Assembly: GCF_000024625.1 (NCBI RefSeq)
Contig: NC_013407.1
Span: 1,116,001-1,180,000, forward strand
Source of the DNA: Methanocaldococcus vulcanius M7
GTDB taxonomy: Archaea > AGJL01 > Methanococci > Methanococcales > Methanocaldococcaceae
DNA: 64,000 nucleotides
Reading direction: 5' to 3'
The position numbers and the translations under genes were made by a program. How positions within the stretch are numbered: position 1 is the first letter of the stretch; each line of letters opens with the position of its first letter. Below the pieces are notes generated by a model that saw only the letters and a program-made list of their open reading frames with translations, was not told the origin of the DNA and did no database searches. Below, piece after piece: positions 16,959 through 43,188 of the stretch.

Positions 16959-18578
16959 ATGGCATTCGATACTAAAAAAATCGTAAAAATGGCAGAAAAA
17001 GATTTTGAAAGAACATGGAGAGAAACAAAAACACTAATAAAAGACAAACACATAGATAAAAAATATCCAAGAATAAAACCAATATATGGAAAGCCACATC
17101 CCGTAATGGAAACAATAGAGAAATTGAGGCAAGCATATTTAAGAATGGGATTTGAAGAGATGATAAACCCTATAATTGTTGATGAAATAGAAATCTATAA
17201 ACAATTTGGGCCTGAGGCAATGGCTGTCTTAGATAGATGCTTTTACTTAGCAGGACTACCAAGGCCAGACGTTGGATTAAGTAATGAAAAACTCGAAATT
17301 ATAAAAACACTGGGAATCCATATAGATGAAAGTAAAAAAGAGACACTGAGAGAAGTTCTTCATCAATATAAAAAAGGAATTATCGATGGAGATGACCTTG
17401 TTTTTGAAATTGCCAAGGCATTAAATATAAGCAACGAAATGGGATTAAAGGTCTTAGAAACTGCATTTCCAGAATTTAAAAACTTAGCTCCAAAGTCAAC
17501 ATCCCTTACGCTGAGAAGCCATATGACCTCTGGCTGGTTTATAACCCTAAGCAGTTTATTAAAGAAGAGAGAACTACCACTTAAACTGTTTTCAATTGAT
17601 AGATGTTTCAGGAGAGAACAGAGAGAAGATAAGAGCCATTTATTAAGTTATCACTCTGCTTCATGTGTAGTTGTTGGAGAAGATGTTAATGTAGACGATG
17701 GAATGGTAGTTGCTGAAGGATTATTAGCCCAATTTGGATTTACAAAATTTAAATTCAAACCAGATGAGAAAAAAAGTAAATATTACACCCCAGAAACTCA
17801 AACCGAAGTTTATGCTTTTCATCCAAAATTAAACGAGTGGATAGAGGTAGCAACCTTTGGAGTTTACTCTCCAATAGCCCTTTCCAAGTATGATATTGAT
17901 GTTCCAGTTATGAATCTTGGGCTGGGAGTAGAGAGGTTGGCAATGATTACATACAACTATGAAGATGTCAGAGCAATGGTCTATCCTCAATTTTATAATT
18001 ACAAACTAACTGATAGAGAAATTGCAAGCATGATAAAAATCGACAAACTCCCAATATTGGATGAGTTATACGAATTTGCAAGAGAGATTATAAGTTATTG
18101 CATAGCAAACAAGGACTTAGAAAGCCCCTGCTCAGTAAACATAAAAAAGGATTTCGAGTTTAATGGAGAGAAAAGGACAATATCTATTGATATATTTGAA
18201 AAAGAACCAAATAAAAAACTACTTGGCCCCTCAATATTAAACGAGGTTTACGTTTATGATGGAAATGTATACGGCATTCCACAAAACTATGAAGGAGTTA
18301 AAGAGGACTACTTGCCAATATTAAAAAAAGCAAAAGAAGAAGGAGTGTCAACCAATATAACCTATTTGGATGGAATAATTTATAAGTTAGTTTCTAAAAT
18401 TGAGGAAGCATTACTCTCCAATATAGATGAGTTTAAATATAGAGTTCCAATAGTTAGAAGTTTAAGCGACATAAATTTAAAAATAGACGAATTAGCCCTA
18501 AAACAAATAATGAGCGAGAATAAGATCATAGATGTTAGAGGTCCCGTCTTTTTAAATGCAAAAATTAACATAAAATAA
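16959..18578 (+). CDS. sepS: O-phosphoseryl-tRNA(Cys) synthetase (SepRS)
   Basis: 539 residues. It charges tRNA-Cys with O-phosphoserine, which SepCysS then converts to Cys-tRNA; this is the main cysteine route in methanogens lacking CysRS. Class II motifs are clear: PIYGKPHPVMETIEKLRQAYLRMGF (motif 1 region), LRSHMTSGWFITLSSL with the phosphoserine-binding THMT-like SHMTS segment, DRCFRREQREDKSHL (motif 2) and MNLGLGVERLAMI (motif 3). The start follows GGTGGGAAGATT. It stands alone after a 206-bp A-rich gap that also holds its promoter. Confidence 0.97.
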   Translation: MAFDTKKIVKMAEKDFERTWRETKTLIKDKHIDKKYPRIKPIYGKPHPVMETIEKLRQAYLRMGFEEMINPIIVDEIEIYKQFGPEAMAVLDRCFYLAGLPRPDVGLSNEKLEIIKTLGIHIDESKKETLREVLHQYKKGIIDGDDLVFEIAKALNISNEMGLKVLETAFPEFKNLAPKSTSLTLRSHMTSGWFITLSSLLKKRELPLKLFSIDRCFRREQREDKSHLLSYHSASCVVVGEDVNVDDGMVVAEGLLAQFGFTKFKFKPDEKKSKYYTPETQTEVYAFHPKLNEWIEVATFGVYSPIALSKYDIDVPVMNLGLGVERLAMITYNYEDVRAMVYPQFYNYKLTDREIASMIKIDKLPILDELYEFAREIISYCIANKDLESPCSVNIKKDFEFNGEKRTISIDIFEKEPNKKLLGPSILNEVYVYDGNVYGIPQNYEGVKEDYLPILKKAKEEGVSTNITYLDGIIYKLVSKIEEALLSNIDEFKYRVPIVRSLSDINLKIDELALKQIMSENKIIDVRGPVFLNAKINIK

Positions 18579-18675: not shown

Positions 18676-19852
18676 GTTTCCATCACGATCCGTGCTGATT
18701 TTAATCCCCGTAACCCTTGTAGCAGTGCTTCTCCATGATGGTTTCCATCACGATCCGTGCTGATTTTAATGTAAATACAATGAAGGTATAAAGTATTTAA
18801 TAGGTGTTTCCATCACGATCCGTGCTGATTTTAATCTTTAATTAGTAAATGTCATAATGATACTGATACTGTAATATTTGTTTCCATCACGATCCGTGCT
18901 GATTTTAATTAATAGGGAGCTGTATATATCGCATCAAGGTCTTTCATGCGTTTCCATCACGATCCGTGCTGATTTTAATGTATTTATTTGCGGTTATAAA
19001 ACATAAAGAGGTAGTAAAAAAGCAGTTTCCATCACGATCCGTGCTGATTTTAATGATAGGATTTCCATCCTTATCAAATTCTATCTCTTCGTTTCCATCA
19101 CGATCCGTGCTGATTTTAATTGCATTGTTTAAAATATATAAATGGAGTGAAGGATCGTTTCCATCACGATCCGTGCTGATTTTAATAGACAGACGACTAT
19201 TCAGAATTTATAGATCTCTTCGACGAGTTTCCATCACGATCCGTGCTGATTTTAATTTGATTTATTACTTCTATTATATCCTCAGCTAATTTCGTTTCCA
19301 TCACGATCCGTGCTGATTTTAATCCCCGTAACCCTTGTAGCAGTGCTTCTCCATGATGGTTTCCATCACGATCCGTGCTGATTTTAATGTAAATACAATG
19401 AAGGTATAAAGTATTTAATAGGTGTTTCCATCACGATCCGTGCTGATTTTAATTGCATTGTTTAAAATATATAAATGGAGTGAAGGATCGTTTCCATCAC
19501 GATCCGTGCTGATTTTAATAGACAGACGACTATTCAGAATTTATAGATCTCTTCGACGAGTTTCCATCACGATCCGTGCTGATTTTAATTTGATTTATTA
19601 CTTCTATTATATCCTCAGCTAATTTCGTTTCCATCACGATCCGTGCTGATTTTAATAGGACTTCTGTAATCTACATAACTTAATTCAATAACGTTTCCAT
19701 CACGATCCGTGCTGATTTTAATATAACTGATCTTACTAAAAATATAAGAGAAGAGAGTTTCCATCACGATCCGTGCTGATTTTAATATAAATAAGTATTT
19801 TCTATATGATGCTAACGAAAGAGTTTCCATCACGATCCGTGCTGATTTTAAT
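18676..19852 (-). CRISPR. CRISPR array, 18 identical 30-bp repeats and 17 spacers, with a duplicated spacer block
   Basis: On the + strand the repeat begins GTTTCCATCACGATCC and ends TGATTTTAAT; on the minus strand it starts ATTAAAATCAG and ends GATGGAAAC, the Methanocaldococcus repeat style, so transcription is taken as minus. Repeats start at 18676, 18741, 18806, 18880, 18950, 19025, 19091, 19157, 19227, 19294, 19359, 19424, 19490, 19560, 19627, 19693, 19757 and 19823. All 18 read the same, including the terminal ones. Spacers are 34-45 bp. Numbered left to right, spacers 10-14 are exact copies of 1, 2, 7, 8 and 9, so there are 12 different spacers. The nearest cas genes are the csm set about 3.4 kb to the left. 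Confidence 0.98.
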
Positions 19853-41033: not shown

Positions 41034-41807
41034 GTGGAAAAACCAGTGATTTGCAAAATAAAAGAAATAATAAAAGAGAGCCCAACAGTAAAAACATTTA
41101 TAATAGATAGAGATTTCGATTTTAAGCCGGGACAGTTTGCAATGCTTTGGCTTCCAGGAGTTGATGAGAAACCATTTGGATTTTCTTCTAAAAATAGTTT
41201 TAGTGTTGCAAAAGTTGGTTATTTTACCAAAAAAATGCATGAACTAAAAGAAGGAGATATAATAGGAGTTAGGGGCCCTTATGGGACATATTTTGAGCCC
41301 ATTGGAGACAAAATTTTAGCAGTTGCGGGAGGGATTGGAGCAGTTCCCATAATAACAGCAGTTGAGGACTTTTCGAAACAGGGAATTGAAATAACTACCA
41401 TATTGGGAGCAAGAAGTAAAGATGAACTGTTATTTTTAGATAGATTTGAAAAAGTTAGTAGATTAGAGATTTGCACAGATGATGGCAGTTTTGGATTTAA
41501 GGGCTTTACAACTGAAAAAATGAAAGAAATTTTAAAAGAGGAGAGATTTGATTTAATTATAACTTGTGGGCCAGAGATAATGATGAAAAAGGTTGTTGAT
41601 ATATCTAATGAACATAACATCCCAGTTCAGGTTTCAATGGAGAGGTATATGAAGTGTGGTATAGGGATTTGCGGACAGTGTTGTGTAGATGATGAAGGTC
41701 TCTGCGTTTGTAAAGACGGCCCTGTATTTTGGGGAGATAAGTTGAAATTTATTAAAGAGTTCGGGAAGTATAAGAGGGATGCGAGTGGTAAGAAGGTTTA
41801 TTATTAA
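41034..41807 (+). CDS. pyrK: Dihydroorotate dehydrogenase electron transfer subunit PyrK
   Basis: 257 residues, starting with GTG at 41034 after GGTGGTATC. Domains are an FAD-binding barrel (KPGQFAMLWLPGVDEKPFGFSS), an NAD-binding domain (ILAVAGGIGAVPIITA, LITCGPEIMMKKV) and a C-terminal [2Fe-2S] motif CGIGICGQCCVDDEGLCVC. It passes electrons from dihydroorotate oxidation to NAD. The pyrD partner is not adjacent. The last 15 codons are repeated, slightly diverged, 90 bp downstream, suggesting the present C-terminus was rebuilt by an insertion. Confidence 0.93.
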   Translation: MEKPVICKIKEIIKESPTVKTFIIDRDFDFKPGQFAMLWLPGVDEKPFGFSSKNSFSVAKVGYFTKKMHELKEGDIIGVRGPYGTYFEPIGDKILAVAGGIGAVPIITAVEDFSKQGIEITTILGARSKDELLFLDRFEKVSRLEICTDDGSFGFKGFTTEKMKEILKEERFDLIITCGPEIMMKKVVDISNEHNIPVQVSMERYMKCGIGICGQCCVDDEGLCVCKDGPVFWGDKLKFIKEFGKYKRDASGKKVYY

Positions 41808-41832
41808 CAACTAATAGATGTTTAGTTTTGAT

Positions 41833-41853
41833 CAACCTTTTCTAAAAAGGTTG
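41833..41853. repeat. Perfect 9-bp hairpin at the edge of a pyrK duplication
   Basis: CAACCTTTT (41833-41841) and AAAAGGTTG (41845-41853) flank a 3-base loop. The hairpin ends exactly where the second copy of the pyrK 3' end begins. It could act as a terminator for pyrK or be part of a small inserted element. Confidence 0.6.
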
Positions 41854-41901
41854 TTCGGGAAGTATAAGAGGGATGCGAGCGGAAAGCGTGTAGTTTTTTG
41901 A
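41853..41901 (+). pseudogene. Remnant second copy of the pyrK 3' end
   Basis: 27 bp (41853-41879) are identical to 41759-41785 inside pyrK, and the frame then continues with small differences to a stop at 41901. The two tails read FGKYKRDASGKKVYY (in pyrK) and [15 protein letters not shown] (remnant). The remnant has no start and cannot be expressed alone. It is most likely the original 3' end of pyrK displaced by a short insertion. Confidence 0.7.
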
Positions 41902-42042: not shown

Positions 42043-43188
42043 ATGATAAAATTCGGAGAAGCAGTTTTGGGAAATGAGATTAAAGCAATAATTAATGTTG
42101 CATTAGGAAATGATAAAGAGATCAATGAAATTTTCACAAATGCCTTAACAAGAGGCAACTGTGTATTTGCCAATTTAAGGCCTAATTTAATAGTTAAACC
42201 ATTAACTTTGGTAGTTCCAAGGCATAATATAGAGAGCGATATACAAGATGAGCTATTTCAGGGAGTTATTCAGTATGCTGTTGCCAAAGCAGTTGCTGAT
42301 TTGGATTTAGATGAGAACTTAAAGGTTGTTATCTCTGTTAATGTTCCAGAAGTTCCAATAACCAATCTAAATAAGAGAAAACTCTTCCAATACTTCTACG
42401 CCTCAGCAAAGTTAGCTATAAACAGAGCTTTAAATGAATATCCTTCAAAAGAGAAGGTGAAGAAAGAAAAATACAGAGCTTTGCATCCATTAGTTGGATT
42501 TAGGGATGTTAGATTAGAATATCCTCCATATCTACAAATTGCGTTAGATGTTCCAACAATGGAAAACTTAGAGTTTTTATTACAAACAATCCCTAAAAGT
42601 GATCACATCATCTTAGAGGCAGGAACTCCGTTAATTAAAAAGTTTGGTTTAGAGGTTATTGAAATAATGAGAGAGTATTTCGATGGGTTTATAGTTGCTG
42701 ATTTAAAAACATTAGATACTGGAAGGGTTGAGGTTAGATTAGCTTTTGAAGCAACAGCTAATGCAGTGGCAATAAGTGGGGTAGCTCCAAAATCAACAAT
42801 AATTAAGGCAATCCACGAATGTCAAAAATGTGGTTTAATAAGTTATTTGGATATGATGAATGTCTCTGAGCCACAAAAATTATATGATTCATTAAAATTA
42901 AAGCCAGATGTTGTTATCTTGCATAGAGGGATTGATGAAGAAACATTTGGAGTTAAAAAGGAGTGGAAGTTTAAAGGAAACTGCTTATTAGCAATTGCTG
43001 GAGGAGTTGGAGTGGAGAATGTTGAGGAGCTTTTAAAAGAATATCAAATATTGATTGTTGGTAGGGCAATTACAAAATCAAGAGACCCGGGAAGAGTGAT
43101 TAGGATGTTTATAAATAAGATGGGTTATGATATAGACACTTATCGGCTTTATTTTGATGAAGATGAAGATATAGGGGAAGAATTATGA
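42043..43188 (+). CDS. fae-hps: Bifunctional formaldehyde-activating enzyme / hexulose-6-phosphate synthase
   Basis: 381 residues from the ATG at 42043; ATGs at 42037 and 41989 are rejected because Fae proteins begin MIKFGEAVLG. The Fae domain (1-160) condenses formaldehyde with tetrahydromethanopterin (GNEIKAIINVALG, LTLVVPRH). The HPS domain (165-381) is an OMP-decarboxylase-like barrel (LQIALDVPT, VADLKTLDTGRVEVRLAFEATANAV, LAIAGGVGVENVEEL, IIVGRAITKSRDPG-type end). In methanogens it makes ribose phosphate from hexulose phosphate. The stop overlaps the methyltransferase ATG (ATGA). Confidence 0.95.
   Translation: MIKFGEAVLGNEIKAIINVALGNDKEINEIFTNALTRGNCVFANLRPNLIVKPLTLVVPRHNIESDIQDELFQGVIQYAVAKAVADLDLDENLKVVISVNVPEVPITNLNKRKLFQYFYASAKLAINRALNEYPSKEKVKKEKYRALHPLVGFRDVRLEYPPYLQIALDVPTMENLEFLLQTIPKSDHIILEAGTPLIKKFGLEVIEIMREYFDGFIVADLKTLDTGRVEVRLAFEATANAVAISGVAPKSTIIKAIHECQKCGLISYLDMMNVSEPQKLYDSLKLKPDVVILHRGIDEETFGVKKEWKFKGNCLLAIAGGVGVENVEELLKEYQILIVGRAITKSRDPGRVIRMFINKMGYDIDTYRLYFDEDEDIGEEL

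Follow-up and report, generated by a model that had tools for sequence, protein, structure and literature searches.

A family of small noncoding palindromic elements is found in Methanocaldococcus, and many of its copies lie at gene ends, between long direct repeats of the gene end itself. One of them separates two 3' ends of pyrK in the genome of Methanocaldococcus vulcanius M7 (G000 below), within the 64,000-nucleotide stretch of DNA analyzed here (the window). This arrangement probably reflects insertion of a hairpin element accompanied by a long duplication of the gene end, with subsequent recombination of the tail and the element between species. In what follows, genomes are designated by G numbers and loci by L numbers; G004 is, we presume, Methanocaldococcus jannaschii.

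The features of the pyrK region, in window coordinates, are as follows.
41034..41807, plus strand: pyrK, encoding the dihydroorotate dehydrogenase electron-transfer subunit (257 amino acids, GTG start), an open reading frame (ORF) with NCBIfam and Pfam matches.
41759..41807, plus strand: tail 1, the pyrK 3' end in use, stop codon included (FGKYKRDASGKKVYY and stop), seen in the sequence.
41808..41852, plus strand: 45-nt insert separating the two tails, consisting of a spacer and a hairpin module, seen in the sequence and the predicted fold.
41833..41853, plus strand: perfect 9-bp hairpin with a 3-nt loop, one module of the palindromic element family, seen in the sequence.
41853..41901, plus strand: tail 2, a detached second pyrK 3' end with its own stop codon and no gene body attached, seen in the sequence.
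42043..43188, plus strand: fae-hps fusion gene (Pfam Fae and OMPdecase), an older downstream neighbor outside the insertion.

The PyrK protein passes the cutoff of NCBIfam NF000796 (403.9 bits, with a cutoff of 224) and matches the Pfam domains DHODB_Fe-S_bind and NAD_binding_1. The last 49 nt of its gene (41759 to 41807) are present again at 41853 to 41901. As the earlier note had stated, 27 bp of this segment recur exactly (41759 to 41785 and 41853 to 41879), and the second copy continues in frame to its own stop codon (41854 to 41901, compared with FGKYKRDASGKKVYY and stop at 41760 to 41807). The ungapped repeat covers 34 nt (41759 to 41792 and 41853 to 41886; 94% identity) with a start-to-start spacing of 94 nt. 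After the 27 identical nucleotides the two tails diverge, tail 1 ending in KKVYY and tail 2 in KRVVF. The perfect 9-bp hairpin ending precisely at the second copy was also confirmed: it reads CAACCTTTT-CTA-AAAAGGTTG at 41833 to 41853 and shares its final base with the start of tail 2. The segment from 41808 to 41860, i.e., the insert and 8 nt of tail 2, folds at -14.1 kcal/mol (z score of -2.87), with 2 of 200 shuffled sequences folding as well. The hairpin is the single recognized module of this insert, and no match to another module could be seen by eye in the spacer. G000 contains a single copy of the exact 19-nt word AACCTTTTCTAAAAAGGTT and G004 contains three; the 12 other genomes searched have none.

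A search of 14 genomes of the genus matched pyrK in 11 and yielded no match in the sister genome G008; the pyrK loci inspected from other organisms were L012 to L015, of 80. Comparison of the pyrK 3' region among relatives, the check proposed in the earlier note, revealed a single tail, followed within about 25 to 100 nt by fae-hps, in five genomes (G001, G005, G006, G007, and G010) and a double tail in G004 and G002. In G003, G009, and G013, no fae-hps start is found in the approximately 400 nt shown behind pyrK. The two tails of G004 are separated by the same hairpin with the same flanking words as in the window; the sequence TTTAGTTTTGATCAACCTTTTCTAAAAAGGTTGTTCGGG, which runs from the 3' part of the insert into tail 2, is identical at both sites. 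The first G004 tail ends in KKIYY, similar to tail 1 of the window. The second has a one-base deletion; it matches, together with the flank behind it, the single-tail relatives and runs directly into their intergenic sequence without a second hairpin. The downstream tail of G004 is thus ancestral, and the first tail arrived with the insert. In G002, a related hairpin, GAAACTTTTTCTAAAAGTTTC, accompanies the double tail, whose end types, judged by eye, are reversed in order.

The suggestion of the earlier note that pyrK acquired a new C terminus and retained the old one as a remnant is therefore supported for G004, where the downstream copy is ancestral. The end type found in the single-tail relatives is present in neither tail of the window, and for this locus we infer that tail 1 (KKVYY) would be the newcomer, tail 2 (KRVVF) the older end, and the 27 identical nucleotides the zone of recombination. 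Over its last 45 nt, the pyrK gene of the window differs from that of G004 at 4 positions, from G007 at 8, from G001 at 9, and from G002 at 13; the 4 differences from G004 fall within the range of 0 to 9 seen in other segments compared for the same pair, so no recent exchange is demonstrated for pyrK itself.

The earlier note had also proposed that the double tail may mark the edge at which the adjacent block of fae-hps and restriction-modification (RM) genes arrived. Proximity alone favors this proposal, and we consider it refuted, with next to no probability left to it. The fae-hps gene adjoins pyrK in all seven relatives compared, and the adjacency is older than the insertion. Among the fetched stretches, a pair of genes for a DNA methylase and a TdeIII-type endonuclease lies behind pyrK-fae-hps only in G004 and G005; those fetched for G001, G002, G006, G007, and G010 gave no match to the pair at an E value of ≤1e-10. 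The RM pair of G005 is accompanied by a single pyrK tail, and the double tail of G002 is not accompanied by the RM pair, an arrangement that speaks against the link even on the earlier note's own terms. These patterns show that the double tail and the RM pair are independent. In G005 (L290, behind fae-hps), the methylase matches only over residues 1 to 168 of 530 and the endonuclease over 369 residues, which suggests that the methylase gene of this genome may be broken or replaced.

The module TTTTGATCAACCTTTTY was found in 5 of the 14 genomes, often within longer multihairpin elements, as at several loci of G001, G002, G004, and G007; its 6 matches in G004 make it a short palindromic sequence present in several copies. 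The stem word CCGAGCGWAGCGAGGNAATGCAT, with up to 1 mismatch allowed, occurs in 11 of the 14 genomes of the genus and in both genomes of a further genus of the order, g5, from a neighboring family; it was found in none of the 20 genomes of three other genera, and the reversed pattern, used as a control, was absent from all 36. Folds of three elements gave z scores from -2.87 to -3.80. Four pattern searches returned 58 element loci, 37 of them distinct. At 18 of these 37, the flanks share a direct repeat with an alignment score of at least 37; in a control of 1,332 mismatched flank pairs, the 99th percentile was 30 and the maximum 56. The other 19 had no flanking repeat at this cutoff and include the G004 pyrK locus, missed through an indel. 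The 18 repeat-flanked loci comprise 14 that overlap an ORF at its 3' end, two at gene 5' ends (L122 and L124), one (L139) at the 3' end of a tRNA gene recognized by ARAGORN, and one (L121) that is unclear. The flanking copies, at gene 3' ends but also at tRNA 3' ends and gene 5' ends, span from 22 to about 77 nt, and the repeated segment is the local gene's own, different at each gene.

At about 1283050 to 1283460 of G000 contig C1 (in L269), a gene has its 5' end, with the start region, duplicated around a composite multihairpin element. In G004 (contig C1, 97164 to 97450 and 97694 to 97831; L214), the 3' ends of two tRNA genes recur beside hairpin elements; ARAGORN places the tRNAs of L214 at 17426 to 17511, with an odd "Stop" anticodon call, and at 17629 to 17716.

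Gene ends were also scanned without reference to the element, by aligning the last 75 nt of each retained ORF of at least 80 amino acids to the next 400 nt and accepting scores of at least 36, with reversed downstream sequence as the control. Within 400 kb of G004, 440 gene ends yielded 16 tail copies (one a CRISPR and 15 others); a 400-kb stretch of G000, with 356 ends, yielded 5 (one a CRISPR, two read as not element-like, guaB, and pyrK). The counts were 2 of 418 in G003, neither with element-like hairpins between the copies; 4 of 371 in G035, which belongs to another genus, 3 of the 4 with such hairpins; and 1 of 390 in G014, without them (all three by eye). The reversed control gave nothing at this score in any of the five genomes. 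In the 15 G004 cases, the copies are 61 to 247 nt apart, and the DNA between them has a minimum free energy per nucleotide of -0.353, compared with -0.110 in 200 ordinary 3' flanks (P = 2e-9); TATGG or TATGC is found in the last 12 nt in 8 of the 15, compared with 9 of 419 controls examined at a fixed position. We considered and rejected the idea that the pyrK repeat derives from a CRISPR; such an array does account for the other strong tail repeat of the window, at 19289. This array (window positions 18800 to 19700; repeat GTTTCCATCACGATCCGTGCTGATTTTAAT) contains a 233-nt block with several spacers that is found again 333 nt further on.

Elements of the family recur at the ends of the same genes in different genomes. 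Of the 10 displayed orthologs of an FrhG-like gene, which matched FrhG below the NCBIfam cutoff, 9 end in an element (the exception being L191), 8 of them with a tail copy; L192, from the window's own genome, is without one, and G008 has nested insertions. At L194 to L197 (G010, G005, G006, and G011, respectively), the frame of this gene enters the element and stops inside the hairpin, which adds PSEAR to the protein. A methyltransferase gene, which we take to be trmI and which has no NCBIfam match above the cutoff, carries an element behind its stop codon in 6 of 13 displayed orthologs, five of them with a tail copy; the count leaves out L182 (G012), whose hairpin modules lie further downstream. 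The comE gene (sulfopyruvate decarboxylase beta subunit; NCBIfam cutoff passed) has an element in 3 of 13 displayed orthologs. For guaB, which was scanned with NCBIfam as a 178-amino-acid piece, one and the same element occupies an equivalent position in 4 of 12, namely, in G000, G008, G007, and G001. The G000 copy lies outside the window (C1, 1230211 to 1231825; L270 and L283); there the guaB tail is present on both sides of a 64-nt hairpin element, with 64 of 65 positions identical. Within the shared guaB element, one hairpin is apparently inverted between G007 (L275, CCTCCGAGCGAAGCGAGGAGG) and G001 (L277, CCTCCTCGCTTCGCTCGGAGA).

The two copies of a tail range from nearly identical to clearly diverged. 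At L141 (G012), they are identical at 50 of 51 positions; an element or tail copy of this type is absent from the approximately 190 nt behind the stop codon in 12 other genomes with the gene, and the G001 ortholog has an unrelated inverted repeat there. We read L141 as a recent insertion that would have duplicated the host's own tail. The copies are identical at 62 of 63 positions in G035 and, at guaB of G008, over 66 nt and a further 7 nt past the stop. Copies are nearly identical where the element is confined to one species and diverged in other cases. Among the 26 ungapped element loci (30 entries minus two that are not elements, G000:118993 and G000:160667, and two with gaps), 234 codons are the same in both copies, 69 differ synonymously, and 33 differ nonsynonymously. 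The 14 ungapped G004 cases have 34 synonymous and 17 nonsynonymous codon changes, compared with a neutral expectation of 78% nonsynonymous (P = 1.7e-11, with changes treated as independent and a transition/transversion ratio of 2 assumed). We dropped the idea that the stop codon marks the exact end of the copies, as the closest pairs continue past it, by 2 nt at L141, by 7 at guaB of G008, and by 12 of 14 in G035. At L111, which is not among the 26 loci, the repeat takes in about 25 nt after the stop codon, and none of the 26 has more than 5 matches in the 8 nt that follow the stop; in old pairs, the loss of similarity past the stop may reflect decay.

Evidence of exchange between species comes from comE and guaB. 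Over the last 45 nt of comE, there are 0 differences between G004 and G002, 1 between G001 and G002, and 1 between G001 and G004, compared with 8, 11, and 5, respectively, in the next 45-nt window upstream. Relative to G012, the last 45 nt have 1 difference in G004 and 2 in G001, and the next segment has 9 and 12. The element-free G007 differs from all four others at 8 to 9 positions in the last 45 nt. The G001-G004 pair is weak when taken alone, since its other windows vary from 1 to 8 differences, and the G012-G002 pair, with 0 to 5 throughout, is uninformative. The second comE tail of G001 resembles the tail of the element-free G007. G002 has the shared tail and no element, the pattern expected from removal of the element by recombination between two tails. 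For guaB, the first 66-nt tails of G001 and G007 are identical, and the 150 nt leading up to the stop codon contain a single difference; further upstream, 134 of 1,372 aligned positions differ (9.8%), although one distant window also has only 1 difference in 60. The second tails of the same pair differ at 10 of 66 positions. In G000 and G008, the guaB copies are nearly identical although the element is shared with G001 and G007, so gene conversion or repeated events are needed.

In the mechanism that we favor, a new insertion would generate a long target duplication of variable length at a gene end. The tail and the element would then be exchanged between species as a unit, by homologous recombination within the tail, leaving a foreign tail in use and the old one downstream; recombination between the two tails could finally eliminate the element, after which the gene would have one tail, a replaced one. 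An element of this kind would be tolerated because the long duplication rebuilds the gene end on one side, with a complete frame and stop codon. No transposase, intermediate, or excision was seen across the loci analyzed. A stronger version of the proposal would make the protein-free hairpin element mobile between species together with the divergent 3' end of its host gene, entering an ortholog by tail recombination, leaving by recombination between tails, and so repeatedly replacing the C termini of core genes (pyrK, guaB, comE, and the methyltransferase and FrhG-like genes). We offer this version tentatively and think it somewhat more likely to be wrong than right.

Among the alternatives, a Campbell-type process comes closest, being a special form of the exchange step: an excised circle of the element and one tail would reintegrate, through one crossover, at the orthologous tail in a different cell or species, so that the upstream copy has the 3' part from the circle and the downstream copy that of the host. 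The pyrK tails, identical in their 5' part and different in their 3' part, are as this scheme predicts; the comE tract shared between species has about the length of the duplicated tail, tails differ mostly synonymously, and several species have elements at the same sites. However, the nearly identical guaB tract, at 150 nt, is longer than the 66-nt tail, as under ordinary recombination with two crossovers, no circle or free form was observed, and the first occupation of new sites such as L141 would be left unexplained; on balance, the process is rather unlikely. An ordinary long target-site duplication, with the detached copy decaying by mutation and no exchange between species, would account for the near identity of copies in single-species cases such as L141 and also for the one-base deletion in the second pyrK tail of G004 and the one-base gaps in two other pairs, G004:343752 and L145. 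Decay of a nonfunctional copy is, however, difficult to reconcile with the predominance of synonymous differences (69 versus 33 codons at the 26 loci, and the neutral expectation in G004), and comE and guaB tails are closer between species than the neighboring gene body. This explanation is disfavored for the older loci and seems improbable overall.

Another possibility is that the pyrK 3' end was duplicated in tandem or by slippage and that the hairpin is an ordinary terminator; the insert is short, and a hairpin following a stop codon can look like a terminator. Against it, the second G004 copy has no hairpin of its own and sits directly on the intergenic sequence of the single-tail relatives, the module is also found next to unrelated genes, the stretch separating the two copies shows an unusual degree of structure in 15 genes of G004, and a tail copy with an element was found at 0 of 418 gene ends in G003 and 0 of 390 in G014. 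Slippage was rejected, being refuted for G004 by these observations, and little probability remains for it at large. We retain insertion with gene-end duplication and interspecies exchange of tail and element as the preferred explanation.

This explanation ties archaeal hairpin repeats to a testable insertion signature, the long gene-end duplication, and provides a route by which an element could enter essential genes and leave them intact. It also suggests that hairpin repeats and short gene segments would move between species together, and it cautions that C-terminal differences among Methanocaldococcus orthologs can be insertion scars. If the stronger version is true, the mobile tail and hairpin would be a natural counterpart of a homing cassette that carries its own rescue.

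Palindromic repetitive elements of M. jannaschii (MJRE), some of them fused into protein genes, were reportedly described in 2005 by Suyama, Lathe, and Bork (FEBS Lett 579:5281). The hairpin repeats described here probably belong to these elements: both are short palindromic repeats of the same genus, and TTTTGATCAACCTTTTY is present in several copies in G004, the likeness being one of description rather than of compared consensus sequences. To our knowledge, neither direct repeats of gene tails nor tail exchange between species has been reported for MJRE. Classical MITEs are moved by a transposase and generate a short target duplication of fixed length, whereas the copies seen here vary from 22 to about 77 nt and rebuild the gene end. 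Site-specific integrative elements carry an integrase gene between their repeats and use one attachment core; in contrast, the 45-nt insert leaves no room for a gene, and the repeat differs from gene to gene. Bacterial MITE-like sequences, as characterized in parts of a review (PMC2229807) that also cites the 2005 description of the M. jannaschii elements, are small, palindromic, and dispersed, and some are located inside genes. A literature search whose scope did not extend to the 2005 report itself found no description of such gene-end duplications in Methanocaldococcus.

The closest architecture in print, judging from sections of the report on Glomus mitochondrial genomes (PMC3630166), is that of the mobile ORFs of fungal mitochondrial DNA. 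These sections describe hybrid atp6, atp9, cox2, and nad3 genes to which mobile ORFs have brought foreign 3' ends, cite atp6 of Allomyces as a similar case, and give identities of 63.5% in DNA and 91% in protein for the two tails of Glomus atp6. The likeness lies in the order of a foreign C-terminal tail in frame, an element, and the native tail downstream, an order that is found at pyrK of G004 and comE of G001 and is inferred for the window. As described there, the fungal mobile ORFs encode endonucleases, whereas the insert in the window is 45 nt of endonuclease-free hairpin DNA, and the setting here is an archaeal chromosome with many unrelated genes rather than a fungal mitochondrial genome.
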